DNA of 64,000 nt from IMG/VR virus record IMGVR_UViG_3300031758_000011, positions 62,001 to 126,000 of that record; one strand, given 5' to 3'. Within the stretch, counting starts at the first letter, position 1, and the number at the start of each line of letters is the position of its first letter. This DNA is from a virus. Shown piece by piece: positions 14,417 to 62,323 of this stretch. The position numbers and the translations under genes are program-made. The notes under the pieces are model-generated. The model saw only the letters and a program-made list of their open reading frames with translations. It made no database searches and was not told the DNA's origin.

Positions 14417-14966
14417 AATATTAATTGGATTAGTTTTATTAGTGATGTTTTTATTTACATCATTAGCTTTTTTATTTAAGTTATATAAAAATGAAAAAGA
14501 AGAAAGAACTAGATTTAGCAACAACATGGTTGCTTTAATCAAAAATAAATCTATGCAACAAGAATTAACTTTTAGAGAATTAAAAGACTTATACCCAAAG
14601 TATGATTCAATTGCAAAAGTTTTAAATATAAAAACAAAATACATAACAAATATTGTTGACACAAAATATAGATTCAAAGATTCAACGTTATCTGTTACAG
14701 TTTTAAAAAAAGATAGCGTTTCAGAAAAAAGTTATTTTAACTTAACTGAAAAATGTTATAGTCTTTCTGGTTACATTAAGAAAGACTCTATATCATTTAC
14801 AAAAAAAGAAGTTAATGATAAGTTAACTACTTTTTTATATAAAGATTGGCATAAGAAATATTTATGGGGATTGTTAAAATTCAAACCATATTATAATGCC
14901 AAAGTTTATAGTGAATGCATGAAGGACACTATGAGCGTCATAAATAACATAAAGATTAAAGAATAG
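14400..14966 (+). CDS. Membrane-anchored hypothetical protein
   Basis: 188 residues with one N-terminal transmembrane segment (about 7-27, KILIGLVLLVMFLFTSLAFLF), then a soluble domain with helix and beta segments. The coding region ends with TAG, followed two codons later by TAA. Basic N-terminus suggests the domain faces the periplasm. Function unknown; a spanin- or lysis-related role is possible from topology but unsupported. Confidence 0.6.
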   Translation: MMLKNKILIGLVLLVMFLFTSLAFLFKLYKNEKEERTRFSNNMVALIKNKSMQQELTFRELKDLYPKYDSIAKVLNIKTKYITNIVDTKYRFKDSTLSVTVLKKDSVSEKSYFNLTEKCYSLSGYIKKDSISFTKKEVNDKLTTFLYKDWHKKYLWGLLKFKPYYNAKVYSECMKDTMSVINNIKIKE

Positions 14967-35766: not shown

Positions 35767-36126
35767 GGGGTATTTAAGGTATTGACTGGGTATAGTCGTA
35801 GGTAGTAAGCATGTAGTGCTAGATTGGAAGCACTTTAAACTGTCTATTAGAACAAGAATTGACAACGATTTAATCGTATCAGAAAATTTCCTTGATGAAG
35901 CGACATTCGTTTCTAACGGAGAGCTTGCAGTAGCCTAATATTGCATATGGTAGTAACCTACCGATGGTGGTAATCCACTAAGATAATGGTAATCCATCTG
36001 GTGTGAAGCTTAAATTACACGGTAAAAAGAGGTAGCGAAATTTCGGATAGTTTGAAAACTATGTCCTAAACATGTAGAAAGCATTGAAGAATATTCAACA
36101 CACGGGTTCGATTCCCGTATACTCCA
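35767..36126 (+). ncRNA. ssrA: Transfer-messenger RNA (tmRNA)
   Basis: 360 nt, typical length. The ends pair as GGGGTAT/ATACTCC with discriminator A; CCA is not encoded. The 5' TATTGACTGGG and AAGCATGTAG, and the 3' CTAAACATGTAGAAAGC and T arm (CGGGTTCGATTCCCG), match conserved tmRNA features. The tag frame probably runs 35861-35938 (GAC resume codon to TAA), giving a long tag of about 25 residues that ends SNGELAVA. tmRNA frees stalled ribosomes and tags the products for ClpXP. A terminator follows. Confidence 0.92.
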
Positions 36127-36177
36127 CTCTTAACAGATTCATTCTCAAACAAATATCCGTGAGTAATGAAATTATTA

Positions 36178-41115: not shown

Positions 41116-41123
41116 TACATTTG
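41116..41123 (+). promoter_or_regulatory. Host-type promoter -7 element TACATTTG
   Basis: Thirteen nt before the CUA tRNA at 41137. Confidence 0.6.
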
Positions 41124-41136
41124 TACTATAAGATTT

Positions 41137-41207
41137 GGTCTTATGATGTAACGGCAGCGTAACGGTCTCTAAAACCGATAGTGAGGGTTCGATTCCCTCT
41201 AAGACCA
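41137..41207 (+). tRNA. Suppressor tRNA, anticodon CTA (reads UAG)
   Basis: 71 nt. Acceptor GGTCTTA/TAAGACC (7 bp), discriminator A, D arm ATGT...GCGT, anticodon loop CTCTAAA (anticodon CTA), T arm GAGGG-TTCGATT-CCCTC. The anticodon arm CGGTCTCTAAAACCG differs by one base from that of the tRNA-Trp at 46895 (CGGTCTCCAAAACCG). It has its own promoter. The charged amino acid is unknown; the E. coli amber suppressor derived from tRNA-Trp takes Gln. Confidence 0.85.
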
Positions 41208-41239
41208 CAAATAATGTTTACTTTGGCATTATTATTGAT

Positions 41240-41247
41240 ATATTTAT
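41240..41247 (+). promoter_or_regulatory. Late-type motif ATATTTAT
   Basis: Exact motif, 12 nt before the ATG at 41260. Confidence 0.6.
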
Positions 41248-41259
41248 TAAAAAAAAGTT

Positions 41260-41610
41260 ATGAAATAGGTTAACGAAAAATTAAGAGTTGTCACAAGACG
41301 CGACTTATCATTACCGACACAAGCGGTACAATCGGCACATGCTGCCATAGATTTCCAACACGCTCATCCTATAGAAGCGACAGAATGGCAATCAAAATCA
41401 AATTATCTGGCATTATTGACAGTCGCTAACGAAGAAGAATTAGTTAGACTATCAGAGAAAGCTGATTCTAGAGGAATCAAGTACACAATATTTAGAGAGC
41501 CAAACATCAACAATGAAATAACAGCAATAGCATTTGAACCTTCTGATTCTAGCAGAAGACTAACTAGTTCTTTTCCATTATTGGGAAGGGAGATAAATAA
41601 CAACGTTTAA
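41260..41610 (+). CDS. Peptidyl-tRNA hydrolase PTH2-like, in-frame UAG at codon 3
   Basis: The frame reads ATG AAA TAG, then VNEKLRVVTRRDLSLPTQAV and QSAHAAIDF, the PTH2 N-terminal signature, and continues to TAA at 41610 (117 codons with stop). No alternative ATG, GTG or TTG restores the N-terminal strand; the first is TTG at 41416, mid-domain. The late-type motif 12 nt upstream marks ATG 41260 as the start. A CUA suppressor tRNA lies 52 nt upstream. PTH2 frees tRNA from dropped-off peptides. Either suppression is required or the gene is dead. Confidence 0.7.
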
Positions 41611-42687: not shown

Positions 42688-43818
42688 ATGGAAAAGAGAA
42701 TTATATTTGATATGCCAATACCAAAAGACATTTTACAAATAAAAGATGTTTTTAAGCAAAATGGTTTTAACCTATATGTTGTAGGTGGTGCAGTGCGTGA
42801 TGCGTTGTTAGGTAAAACACCTAAAGATTACGATTTGGCAACCGATGCTATCCCAGACCAAGTGGAAGACATAATGGCTAAAGGTGGTTTTAGAACTTTA
42901 CCAACTGGTAAAGCATTTGGTGTTATCAACGTCTTTACTGATATGGGTGAATACGAAATCGCAACTTTTAGGGAAGACTTATCTAGCGGTAGAAGACCAG
43001 ATGGTGTTAGTTTTACAGATATAGTAGGTGACGTTAAAAGACGTGACTTAACAATCAACGCATTATTTTACGATATAGACACGTCAGAAGTTGTTGATTT
43101 GGTTGATGGTATAGAAGACCTTAAAAACAGTGTTGTAAGGACTGTAGGTGCAGCTGAAGATAGATTTGGTGAAGATAGATTACGTATATTAAGAGCAATT
43201 AGATTTGCTGGTAGATTTGGTAGTGAATTAGACCCATCAGTTGACGCTGCATTGCAAAAAGATGCTAGTTTGGAAGGTATATCTGGTGAAAGAATCAGAG
43301 ATGAGTTTTTGAAAGGTATCAAATCAGCAAAATCTGTAAAATCGTTTTTAAAAATGATTGACAAATACAATTTATTTGATTGGGTTTTTAAAGATGTTAA
43401 TGTTAATAAAAATTTCATTGAAGATAATGATATAATTATTGTTTTAGCAATGTTGTTAAAGAATAATAAAGTTGATTTATTAACAAAACAATTGAACAAA
43501 TTAAAATACTCAATTGATGAAATAAGAGCTATTACATTTTTGATTAGTCTATTGAATTTGTCGATTGATACAGCTGTAACGCTTAAAAAAGCTGAAAAGA
43601 CATCTGGTGTAACAGCAGAACAAATAACTAGATTTGCTCAATTAAGTGGTATTGATGTAAAGATTATAGATACATTTTTATTATTTAAATTAACGGTTAA
43701 TGGTTCAGACCTAATGACAAAGATGGGGTTAAAACAAGGACCAGAATTAGGTAAAGAAATACAAAGACTAGAAACTGATAATTTTAAAAAACTTTATCTA
43801 GATATATTTATTTTTTGA
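42688..43818 (+). CDS. cca: CCA-adding enzyme / tRNA nucleotidyltransferase
   Basis: 376 residues of the class II (poly(A) polymerase-like) family: LYVVGGAVRDALLGKTPKDYDLATDA, FGVINVFTD, EIATFRED, RRDLTINALFYDI and EDRLRILRAIRFAGRFG. The enzyme adds or repairs the 3' CCA of tRNAs. The phage tRNAs and tmRNA here do not encode CCA, so they depend on such an enzyme. Shorter than cellular enzymes at the C-terminus. Specificity (CCA or A adding) cannot be told from sequence. Confidence 0.9.
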   Translation: MEKRIIFDMPIPKDILQIKDVFKQNGFNLYVVGGAVRDALLGKTPKDYDLATDAIPDQVEDIMAKGGFRTLPTGKAFGVINVFTDMGEYEIATFREDLSSGRRPDGVSFTDIVGDVKRRDLTINALFYDIDTSEVVDLVDGIEDLKNSVVRTVGAAEDRFGEDRLRILRAIRFAGRFGSELDPSVDAALQKDASLEGISGERIRDEFLKGIKSAKSVKSFLKMIDKYNLFDWVFKDVNVNKNFIEDNDIIIVLAMLLKNNKVDLLTKQLNKLKYSIDEIRAITFLISLLNLSIDTAVTLKKAEKTSGVTAEQITRFAQLSGIDVKIIDTFLLFKLTVNGSDLMTKMGLKQGPELGKEIQRLETDNFKKLYLDIFIF

Positions 43819-59197: not shown

Positions 59198-60505
59198 ATG
59201 ATAGTAAAAGAGAACGGTTTAAGATACGCAAAACTGATACATGTATCAGTTGATAATGGTTTGACCAGCCAAAGTAATAAAGTTTATATTATGGAAGAAT
59301 TATCAGATGGCCGTATCAAATGTGAATATGGTCGTGTTGGCAAGTCTTTAACAACTGAATATAAACCTAGTTCAAAATGGGATAGTGTGTTGAAACAAAA
59401 ACTATCAAAAACAAAAGGTTATACAGATGTAACTGATTTGTTGGCTGAACCAGTTGTGGATGAATCAAAACCAGTTGATAATAAAGTTGCAAATATCAAA
59501 GATGAGATTGTGCGTAAATTGGTTGATGAATTGATGTCATTTGCCAACAAATCAATCCAACGTAACTATAAGGTAACGCAAGAAGCTGTATCGGAACAAC
59601 AAGTTACCGCTGCACAAGAGATTATCACTAACATTAGTGGATTGATTGCTATTGGTGTAGATATCAAACATATCAATGATATGTTATTGAAACTTTATAC
59701 AATTATCCCTAGAAGAATGGATAACGTAAAAGACCATTTGTTTAGAGAGATTAGTAATGATGTTAGTTTGACTAACGCACAAAGATTGATTGATAACGAA
59801 CAATCAGCGTTGGATACAATGGCTGGTCAAGTTGAGTTGATTAAACAACAAAGAGAAGCTGCTAAGAAAGCTGCTGAGGCTGAAGCTGAAGGTAAAAAAG
59901 AAGAAGTATCTGAAGTTACTATCTTAGACCAAATGGGATTATCTATTGAGGTTGAAAATGATACTGAAACGCTTGAACTTATCAAAAAATTGATGGGTCC
60001 AAATGTGAATCAAATGAAACGTGTGTTCAAGGTTGTTAACAACAAAACACAAAAAATATTTGATAAACACATGGATAAAGTTGAAGTTAAGAAACGTAGA
60101 CTATACTGGCATGGGTCAAGAAATGAGAACTGGTTTAACATTTTACAAACTGGGTTACTTATCAGACCATCTGGTGCGGTACATACTGGGTCAATGTTTG
60201 GTGATGGTATCTACTTTGCTGACAAAGCACAAAAATCTATTGGTTACACATCGTTAAGAGGTTCTTATTGGGCTCATGGTGGTGATAACAAAGCGTTTTT
60301 GGCATTGTTTGATGTGCATTTGGGTAAACAAAAAGAAATATTGCACCATGACTCAAGCTGTTATAAGTTATCTAAGAAAGTGTTAGATAATGAAGGATTT
60401 GATAGTGTGTTTGCAAAAGGTGGCGCTGACCTAAGAAATAACGAATATATAGTATATAACTCAGCACAATGTACTGTATCACATTTAATTGAAATAGGAA
60501 ATTAA
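59198..60505 (+). CDS. Poly(ADP-ribose) polymerase-like enzyme (WGR-PRD-ART, H-Y-E)
   Basis: 435 residues with the layout of PARP2/3-type enzymes: a WGR-like domain (about 1-85; YIMEELSDGRIKCEYGRVGK), a helical regulatory domain (about 105-240; ISGLIAIGVDIKHINDMLLK), and an ART domain with His305 (LYWHGSRNENW), Tyr339 (MFGDGIYFADKAQKS) and Glu416 (LRNNEYIVYN), the H-Y-E triad of true PARPs. It should transfer ADP-ribose from NAD to protein, nucleic acid or growing chains; WGR domains sense broken DNA/RNA ends. Early promoter. Confidence 0.9.
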   Translation: MIVKENGLRYAKLIHVSVDNGLTSQSNKVYIMEELSDGRIKCEYGRVGKSLTTEYKPSSKWDSVLKQKLSKTKGYTDVTDLLAEPVVDESKPVDNKVANIKDEIVRKLVDELMSFANKSIQRNYKVTQEAVSEQQVTAAQEIITNISGLIAIGVDIKHINDMLLKLYTIIPRRMDNVKDHLFREISNDVSLTNAQRLIDNEQSALDTMAGQVELIKQQREAAKKAAEAEAEGKKEEVSEVTILDQMGLSIEVENDTETLELIKKLMGPNVNQMKRVFKVVNNKTQKIFDKHMDKVEVKKRRLYWHGSRNENWFNILQTGLLIRPSGAVHTGSMFGDGIYFADKAQKSIGYTSLRGSYWAHGGDNKAFLALFDVHLGKQKEILHHDSSCYKLSKKVLDNEGFDSVFAKGGADLRNNEYIVYNSAQCTVSHLIEIGN

Positions 60506-61218
60506 TGGAAAAGATATTAAAAACTGGATATGAATGGTGTTTAGATGCAAATGTTAGAATATTAGACATTTCATCATGGGACACATCTATGGCATTTTAC
60601 GAAGAATCGTATTATGAAGAAAAAATTGATGTGCAAGAGTTTTACAGACGTTTAGGGTTATGTAAAGTTAAAGCTGATTCAACACCACGTAAGAGTGAAA
60701 TGTACTTAGAACGTAGAATGTATGGGTTGGTTCCGTATAACATGTCCCCGATTCAACAAGGAATCCAATTTGGTCACGCTGTCGTTGATTATGGTAGAAC
60801 TGTTGAAGGGTTAAAACCACATCAACAAATATATAACAAATGGGCTGATAAAGATAAAACATTTATTATTCTTAACGGTGGTACAACAAACAACAACCCA
60901 GAAAGATTGGGAACTTTGAATAGACACATGCAAACTATGCGTGAAGCTGGTGTGTTGTTGCAAGAGTTTCATGAACCAGATTTGGGTGACCAATTAACAG
61001 CGTTTGTTTTCTTAGTTGATGAAAGGGTGTTTAACAGAACGTTATATCCAGACTTTGTACCAGAAACGTTACCATGGAGTAGACACAAGCCATCAGAGAA
61101 AGCTTTATCTCAATTGGAAGAGAAAAATGCTAAGAATTATAAACAATGGGAAGAAAAAATTGGTGGACCAGTTAATGCGTTCCTAAGAGAATATTTAAGA
61201 CCATTGAAATTAGCTTAA
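60505..61218 (+). CDS. PTH2-fold-like protein
   Basis: 237 residues, start overlapping the PARP stop by 1 nt. After a ~65-residue N-terminal region, ERRMYGLVPYNMSPIQQGIQ and FGHAVVDYGRT resemble the PTH2 signature (compare DLSLPTQAVQSAHAAIDF in the 41260 gene), followed by TFIILNGGTTNNNPERLGTL and TAFVFLVDERVFN. It may act on peptidyl-tRNA or a related ester. Coupling to the PARP suggests a linked function. The family call is tentative. Confidence 0.5.
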   Translation: MEKILKTGYEWCLDANVRILDISSWDTSMAFYEESYYEEKIDVQEFYRRLGLCKVKADSTPRKSEMYLERRMYGLVPYNMSPIQQGIQFGHAVVDYGRTVEGLKPHQQIYNKWADKDKTFIILNGGTTNNNPERLGTLNRHMQTMREAGVLLQEFHEPDLGDQLTAFVFLVDERVFNRTLYPDFVPETLPWSRHKPSEKALSQLEEKNAKNYKQWEEKIGGPVNAFLREYLRPLKLA

Positions 61219-61750: not shown

Positions 61751-62323
61751 ATGGAAGATTTTGAGAAAGAACAAGAAATTACTAGGTATTTAGATAAATA
61801 TTATCACGTAAAAGAAGGTGTCTTTATAATCAAATATGATGACACTCAAGAATGGGGTTTTAATTTATTACAATATCTAGTTAAAATATTTAACCATGAA
61901 GTAGACTTTACTCAAGAAGTAATCAAAAAATGGTATTTTTCAAAAGGTTATGATGAAAACGCATATAAGCTATCACTTGGAACTAAAAGGATAAATGCTG
62001 TATGGTCAGAAGAAAGAATAACTGATTTACAACGATATGGTATCATGGATGCCGAAGCTGAACTTATCAAATTATTAAGTGATGAGATAGCTAAAGAGAT
62101 TGATGCACAAATACTTAAAGATTTAAGAGGTCAAATTAAAAAGAAAGATGAATTTTTTGAGTTATTGGAATGTGTTGGTTTGGAACCAACACAAACAATC
62201 TATAATCCAATGAATTTTTCACCACAAAAAGGATTTATAACCACAAGTTATGAACGAAGAGAAAATGCAAGGAAGAATAACATTATCTGGAACTATTGGG
62301 TTCGAGCCAGAGGACCGAACTAA
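61751..62323 (+). CDS. Hypothetical protein
   Basis: 190 residues, helical, with VHVKEG-type start (YLDKYYHVKEGVFIIKYDD) and AELIKLLSDEIAKEIDAQILKDL, a pattern seen in capsid-neck or small terminase-like helices but too weak to name. It overlaps the next gene by 74 nt, an unusually long overlap here. Confidence 0.55.
   Translation: MEDFEKEQEITRYLDKYYHVKEGVFIIKYDDTQEWGFNLLQYLVKIFNHEVDFTQEVIKKWYFSKGYDENAYKLSLGTKRINAVWSEERITDLQRYGIMDAEAELIKLLSDEIAKEIDAQILKDLRGQIKKKDEFFELLECVGLEPTQTIYNPMNFSPQKGFITTSYERRENARKNNIIWNYWVRARGPN

Follow-up and report, generated by a model that had tools for sequence, protein, structure and literature searches.

A stop codon close to the start of a peptidyl-tRNA hydrolase gene of the PTH2 family, located behind a transfer RNA (tRNA) gene with the matching anticodon, is described here in a stretch of viral DNA of 64,000 nucleotides (the window), which is part, at positions 62,001 to 126,000, of the 126.5-kb IMG/VR virus record IMGVR_UViG_3300031758_000011. 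The observation first made in a preliminary description of the sequence, a CUA tRNA beside an amber-interrupted PTH2 frame, was confirmed, and comparison with related phages supports, with a probability that we set at about 0.86, the view that the stop acts as a gate: PTH2 would be made only when a suppressor tRNA encoded by the phage reads the matching early stop codon. The comparison shows that the gate is conserved, that it is linked to the tRNA, that codon and anticodon covary and that the genomes are not recoded as a whole; from this we infer actual readthrough at the gate. If the interpretation is correct, it would be a natural case in which one gene is under the control of its own cognate suppressor tRNA, and it would give one specific and conserved target to phage suppressor tRNAs, which outside recoded genomes have been orphans in several papers.

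The elements of the locus are listed in Table 1. The tRNA matches the family RF00005 over its full length (60.1 bits, E 2e-12; Infernal) as a complete cloverleaf; the label tRNA-Pyl given to it by ARAGORN derives solely from the CTA anticodon, and the ordinary tRNA model fits the RNA. The preliminary description had placed this tRNA 52 nucleotides before the ATG at 41260 of a PTH2 frame reading ATG AAA TAG, and the two programs, the spacing, the gene start and the domain match all agree with it. The gene begins ATG AAA TAG GTT AAC GAA AAA..., the frame being then open to 41610, with 113 PTH2 codons in frame 3' of the TAG. The first ATG, GTG or TTG after the stop is a TTG at 41416, 49 codons in, and a start there would drop the conserved N-terminus, so the earlier claim that no other start can supply that N-terminus holds. 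A late-type motif had also been reported 12 nucleotides before the ATG: TATATTTATTA is present, but at 10 nucleotides, and with two motifs of this type in the window its count is not above chance expectation.

When viral contigs were scanned with the PTH2 protein, 33 loci were recovered, with identity down to 48%. In the close relatives each locus whose 5' end is present shows ATG, 1-6 codons, TAG and PTH2, with the leaders MK*, MT*, MTH*, MN*, MKN*, MKH*, MKQH*, MKDT* and MKKPFYY*, and the CUA tRNA lies 130-270 nucleotides upstream in most and about 0.9-1.3 kb off in others. Searches of annotated phage proteins revealed the same gate in the phages Tenacibaculum pT24, Acinetobacter ME3, Serratia BF, Pectobacterium CBB, Xanthomonas XbC2, Cronobacter GAP32, Erwinia Kaldavass and Salmonella Arash, in the huge phages LR756500, LR756501, LR745206 and LR756511, and on an HD-like/PTH2 fusion in XacN1 and Stenotrophomonas RAS14; in XacN1 the gate (MK*TIKAMKL) lies upstream of the annotated ORF364. 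Nearly all genomes of these distant phages carry a CUA tRNA, either at a distance of 0.1-10 kb or in another part of the sequence. The ATG located before the TAG has a GAGGA Shine-Dalgarno sequence ahead of it in most of the enterobacterial phages, which supports that ATG as the start. Altogether 67 gated loci were collected, which group into 44 clusters at 90% identity and 7 at 50%. Sixty-six have TAG as the stop and one, from the Agrobacterium phage Atu_ph07, has TGA; TAA does not occur. Their shared architecture is ATG, 1-6 more codons, the stop and PTH2, nearly always without a usable later start. ATG, TAG and PTH2 share one frame in 66 loci, with L133 as a possible exception, and the base 3' of the stop is A or G save in L023 and L027. 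A search of related genomes for a conserved TAG had been proposed as a check; the codon is kept in 66 loci of independent assemblies and isolates, and that of the window is therefore not a sequencing error. Nucleotide BLAST of the window locus against phage records, a bacterial genome scan for relatives and a scan with the RAS14 PTH2 as query gave no match. In the records inspected, annotation pipelines miss or truncate the gated gene, which is started internally, labelled hypothetical or omitted.

Codon and anticodon covary, and this is evolutionary evidence of gate function. An opal suppressor tRNA (UCA) and PTH genes had been reported for Atu_ph07 (PMC6102473), and a TGA gate was predicted from that tRNA before the sequence was inspected. 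The gate is indeed TGA (AGAAAGG..ATG ATT GGC GAA CAC TTT TGA ATT AAT TAT...), with no start between the TGA and the conserved core, and the UCA tRNA was confirmed by ARAGORN. In the nearest relative, the Sinorhizobium phage Phosso, the orthologous gene, 72% identical to that of Atu_ph07, reads AGGAGAAAACGAA ATG AAG TAT TAG; the genome has two CUA tRNAs, and a UCA tRNA gave no pattern match in it. Hence, with TGA and UCA in one phage and TAG and CUA in the other, gate codon and anticodon changed together. The stop of the gate matches the suppressor anticodon of the phage, as expected of a gene gated by suppression. In the ungated PTH2 relatives RaK2, Hallingskeid and Aeromonas 65 no suppressor tRNA came up in pattern or tRNA-gene searches, and a relative combining a CUA tRNA with a sense codon at the gate was not encountered. 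This covariation and the joint absence in ungated relatives support the conditional expression of PTH2 that had been suggested from the window.

Several points weigh against the interpretation. The support comes entirely from the comparison of sequences. The association between gate and suppressor tRNA (Fisher p = 0.002, a conservative value) is only indicative, as the records are related, which the test ignores, and the ungated controls are three. Pattern and tRNA-gene searches detected no CUA tRNA in L170 (430 kb) and LR745206 (635 kb), both large records with a gate, a candidate in the latter reading as Arg(UCU) on inspection, nor was one detected in several gated fragments. Phage DLP5 has a CUA tRNA, yet no gated PTH2, and indeed no PTH2 was found in it. 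In mycobacteriophages the gate may be spurious, the sequence being ATG/GTG-TAG-GTG with a better-spaced Shine-Dalgarno at the GTG.

Some variants of the locus were also seen. In those mycobacteriophages (L038, L041, L042, L173-L175) the ATG/GTG-TAG comes directly or almost directly before the annotated PTH2 start, which is ambiguous, and a CUA tRNA is located about 0.5-0.7 kb downstream. At L014:9184 and L139:9249 a second TAG-gated frame, with the leaders MTH*ISNNEKLRIVTRRDI.. and M*IGSKLIVITRRDL.., joins the N-terminus of PTH2 to a protein resembling a homing endonuclease, beside an intact gated PTH2. In the PTH2 relative at L133:9940-10001 the ATG..CAG TAG is in a different frame, by a +1 shift at the TAG or an assembly error, and a CUA tRNA was not detected in its 165-kb contig. 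An ochre gate in Lak-B5 (TAA after ATG, beside a UUA tRNA) was considered and rejected, since the TAA is not a conserved feature and Lak-C1 shows a normal ATG at that place. In the Lak phages L043, L324 and L325 an ungated PTH2 is preceded, at about 0.6-0.8 kb, by an ochre suppressor tRNA (UUA).

The window protein matches PF01981 over most of the domain (E 1.8e-9, 38.2 bits, cut-off 23), and the frame past the TAG gives profile matches to solved Pth2 structures, e.g. 2zv3 and 1rzw. Its score is below the NCBIfam equivalog cut-off, and it is therefore classed as a PTH2-domain protein with presumed hydrolase activity. Purifying selection acts past the TAG, with non-synonymous divergence (dN) of 0.04-0.16 against synonymous divergence (dS) of 0.2-1.2. 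Of the canonical catalytic segment G-K-x-K-x-A-A-Q, the GKxK part is missing from the gated Bacteroidota and gamma groups, which retain Q and HA; AGKLASQ is retained in Atu_ph07 and Phosso. Because most of the gated proteins are without GKxK, their activity may be specialised. A second PTH gene of XacN1, ORF295, is canonical and starts in the ordinary way. The window also contains, at 60505-61218, a second PTH2-like gene (phrog_3668 hydrolase), ungated, with an ordinary ATG and a long N-terminus.

If TAG were reassigned in the whole genome or in the late genes (genetic code 15), PTH2 being one of many genes carrying in-frame TAGs, the suppressor tRNA and a second TAG within the PTH2 of LR756501 would be accounted for. 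This explanation is nevertheless very improbable. TAG terminates 6 of the 70 window genes of at least 100 amino acids (6-9 window genes overall), the previously noted TAG stops at 14966 and 23193 having been verified, and it ends 18 genes of that size in the gated phage G006 and 75 in G011; TAG thus remains a terminator. A set of 54 loci (936 kb) was scanned for ATG plus 0-6 codons plus a stop with a long frame behind it that lacks early starts. The scan gave 31 TAG gates derived from PTH2 and a remainder of 7 TAG, 16 TAA and 6 TGA, mostly antisense frames; no gated gene class besides PTH2, counting the two endonuclease fusions, was found in it. Stop usage and scan bear out the early judgement that there is no simple genome-wide recoding. 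Moreover, the TAG is fixed at codon 2-8 and not scattered, and in Atu_ph07 an opal gate is paired with an opal tRNA. Known code 15 phages (crAss-like, Lak), which read TAG as Gln, resemble the gated ones in encoding a suppressor tRNA within a standard-code host, whereas the latter interrupt a single gene, and A73 in their tRNAs suggests Lys rather than Gln. Hardly more credible is termination at the TAG with re-initiation at the following codon (AUU, GUU, AUA and similar) and no suppression. That codon is often AUU, GUU or GUA in the Bacteroidota-phage group and GTG in mycobacteriophages, but it is AAT, AAC, ACC, ACT, AGC or CTT in other groups, and the pairing of TAG with CUA and of TGA with UCA would be left unexplained. 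That the gene is a pseudogene, or its TAG an assembly error, has practically negligible probability: pipelines do skip or truncate it, but the stop is kept across independent isolates and assemblies and purifying selection past it is strong.

Under the gating mechanism that we favour, the PTH2 messenger would have an ordinary ATG start and, after 1-6 further codons, UAG (UGA in one phage), where host RF1 would by default terminate and leave a tiny peptide only. The suppressor tRNA (CUA, or UCA in the opal case) would be transcribed, receive its CCA and be aminoacylated, probably with lysine by the host, and once active it would outcompete RF1 and read the stop, giving full PTH2. Since PTH2 would be made only by readthrough, its output would sense active suppressor against release factor, as a readout of their ratio. 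Charging may be the limiting, regulated step. The reason why PTH2 is the gated gene is probably homeostasis of suppression or peptidyl-tRNA drop-off. RF2, encoded by prfB, is produced when termination fails at its own early in-frame UGA through an autoregulatory +1 frameshift, and IF3, encoded by infC, acts on its own unusual start codon. By analogy, the gated product could act on the event controlling its own synthesis and close a homeostatic loop, in which PTH2 would clear the short peptidyl-tRNAs dropped at AUG-x-UAG and at other suppressed or failed stops; alternatively, its target could be the suppressor itself, which PTH2 would limit.

Two further explanations concern the purpose of the arrangement. 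The suppressor might mainly disrupt termination in host or defence genes, PTH2 being a co-regulated antidote made in step with suppression. The coupling of PTH2 to suppression is conserved despite turnover of the tRNA body, in some phages genes for tmRNA and release factors are found close to the locus, and DLP5 retains the tRNA without the PTH2 gate; however, host targets are purely conjectural, and this unlikely though not trivial proposal is compatible with gating by the suppressor. Less likely still, the gate would be a timer or AND-gate that only delays PTH2 until phage tRNAs accumulate, the identity of the gated gene being incidental. A synthetic suppressor-tRNA feed-forward leak dampener (PMC7969014) does exactly that. 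Like the phage gate, it ties expression of a gene to that of the suppressor tRNA; it is engineered, whereas the phage gate is natural and widespread. Against the timer, the gated gene is PTH2 or a PTH2 fusion every time in distant phages, and its identity is therefore not incidental.

The gated gene resembles prfB in being a translation-factor gene with a stop near its start whose expression requires that termination fail there. It differs in that the stop would be passed in frame by a cognate suppressor with no slip, the PTH2 frame not being +1 from the start, in that the gene is PTH2, and in that the identity of the stop, UAG or UGA, goes with the tRNA. In phage lambda the bar minigenes (AUG-AUA-stop) release peptidyl-tRNA by drop-off and become toxic at low Pth. 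They share with the gate an AUG, one or few codons and a stop, and the tie to peptidyl-tRNA hydrolase, but the mini-frame of the gate is fused in frame to PTH2, and drop-off is hypothetical here. CUA suppressor tRNAs without a specific target were reported in XacN1, Summit/DLP5 and RsoM2USA (PMC5852040, PMC9022506, PMC8504454); among these, the XacN1 authors sought a target and could identify none, and the Summit authors sought one, found none and regarded the purpose as still unknown. The tRNA is of the same kind as in the gated phages, to which XacN1 belongs: it does have a target, the gate upstream of ORF364, overlooked because the coding sequence was annotated from a later ATG, while DLP5 is still without one. 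Literature on PTH with amber codons or suppressors in phages yielded reports of target-less or general-target tRNAs and unrelated work but no description of the present system, most subscription papers and all preprints lying outside the coverage, and the novelty of the system is provisional. The gate is present in culturable phages (Serratia BF, GAP32, CBB, Arash, ME3, XacN1, pT24, Atu_ph07) and is hence immediately testable.

The suppressor tRNAs themselves evolve unevenly: acceptor stems vary from one phage to the next with hardly any restriction, whereas A37 and the CUA anticodon are constant. A73 is present in 30 of 35 and the G3:U70 pair in none. Under the identity rules of Escherichia coli tRNAs, A73 and U35 are elements that point to lysine, and lysine, charged by the host, is on these grounds most likely the inserted residue. 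The suppressor arm had been said to differ by one base from that of the phage tRNA-Trp. This stands for the anticodon loop; the full 5-bp arm has three differences, and position 73 is A in the window suppressor against G in the window tRNA-Trp. A Trp origin of the tRNA body was accordingly rejected. The CCA-adding enzyme encoded nearby is a probable functional partner of the gate tRNA, which needs it because its gene does not encode CCA. Between L129:13800-13880 and L130:13461-13540 the body of the CUA tRNA is swapped within near-identical flanks and the anticodon kept. The suppressor tRNAs of L129 and ME3 have C33 in place of U33.

Table 1. Features of the gated locus and its surroundings (window coordinates unless a locus is named)
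Feature	Position	Strand	Evidence or remark
Phage transfer-messenger RNA (tmRNA; ribosome rescue), tag VSENFLDEATFVSNGELAVA	35767..36127	+	ARAGORN; about 5 kb upstream of the gate; context only
Suppressor tRNA gene, anticodon CUA, A73, short variable loop, 3' CCA unencoded	41137..41208 (ARAGORN); 41137..41207 (Infernal)	+	ARAGORN, Infernal RF00005, identity bases
TATATTTATTA promoter-like motif directly 5' of the PTH2 gene	41239..41249	+	Similar TATATTTATA elements ahead of the gene in several relatives
Amber-gated PTH2 gene, MK*VNEKLRVVTRRDL..., 116 codons if codon 3 is sense	41260..41610	+	PF01981, PDB profile, dN/dS well <1 past the TAG
Gate ATG AAA TAG, two sense codons then amber	41260..41268	+	Kept in 66 loci
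Amber codon presumed to be read by the suppressor, next base G	41266..41268	+	Sequence
CCA-adding enzyme (tRNA nucleotidyltransferase)	42688..43818	+	PF01743, E 2.6e-34
RF1-type gene of relatives	L002-L005, L007, L009-L012, L014, L015, L019; e.g. L009:6330-6970, L005:7400-8019		

Twelve relatives have, 1.5-4 kb upstream of the gated PTH2, a phage gene that encodes an RF-1 domain with a PxT-type motif and GGQ and is most similar to prfA (E 5e-48). In five lineages it is broken at CTT TAG C with the remainder in +1, as in prfB but with UAG; otherwise it is broken by two in-frame TGA codons (six loci), at least one of them aligned with Cys. The interrupted gene is possibly the RF1 counterpart of the prfB frameshift. 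It is absent from the window, where the tmRNA is present. These neighbours suggest a gene cluster around stop-codon handling near the gated PTH2. As a tentative proposal, for which we claim less than even odds, large phages may share a conserved circuit for decoding UAG in which a fast-evolving suppressor body with a fixed anticodon, the stop-gated PTH2 as feedback actuator on suppressed or failed termination and, in some, the RF1-like gene interrupted in prfB style at CUU-UAG-C would jointly set the reading of stops during infection. A tmRNA was also found in L014, and an odd tmRNA call in L012. Unusual tRNA-like genes whose anticodons are called as 2 or 4 bases lie about 0.6-1.6 kb after PTH2 in L011, L012, L016 and L021-L026, and a tRNA-Cys lies about 0.6 kb past the PTH2 start in L003-L005, L007, L014 and L019.
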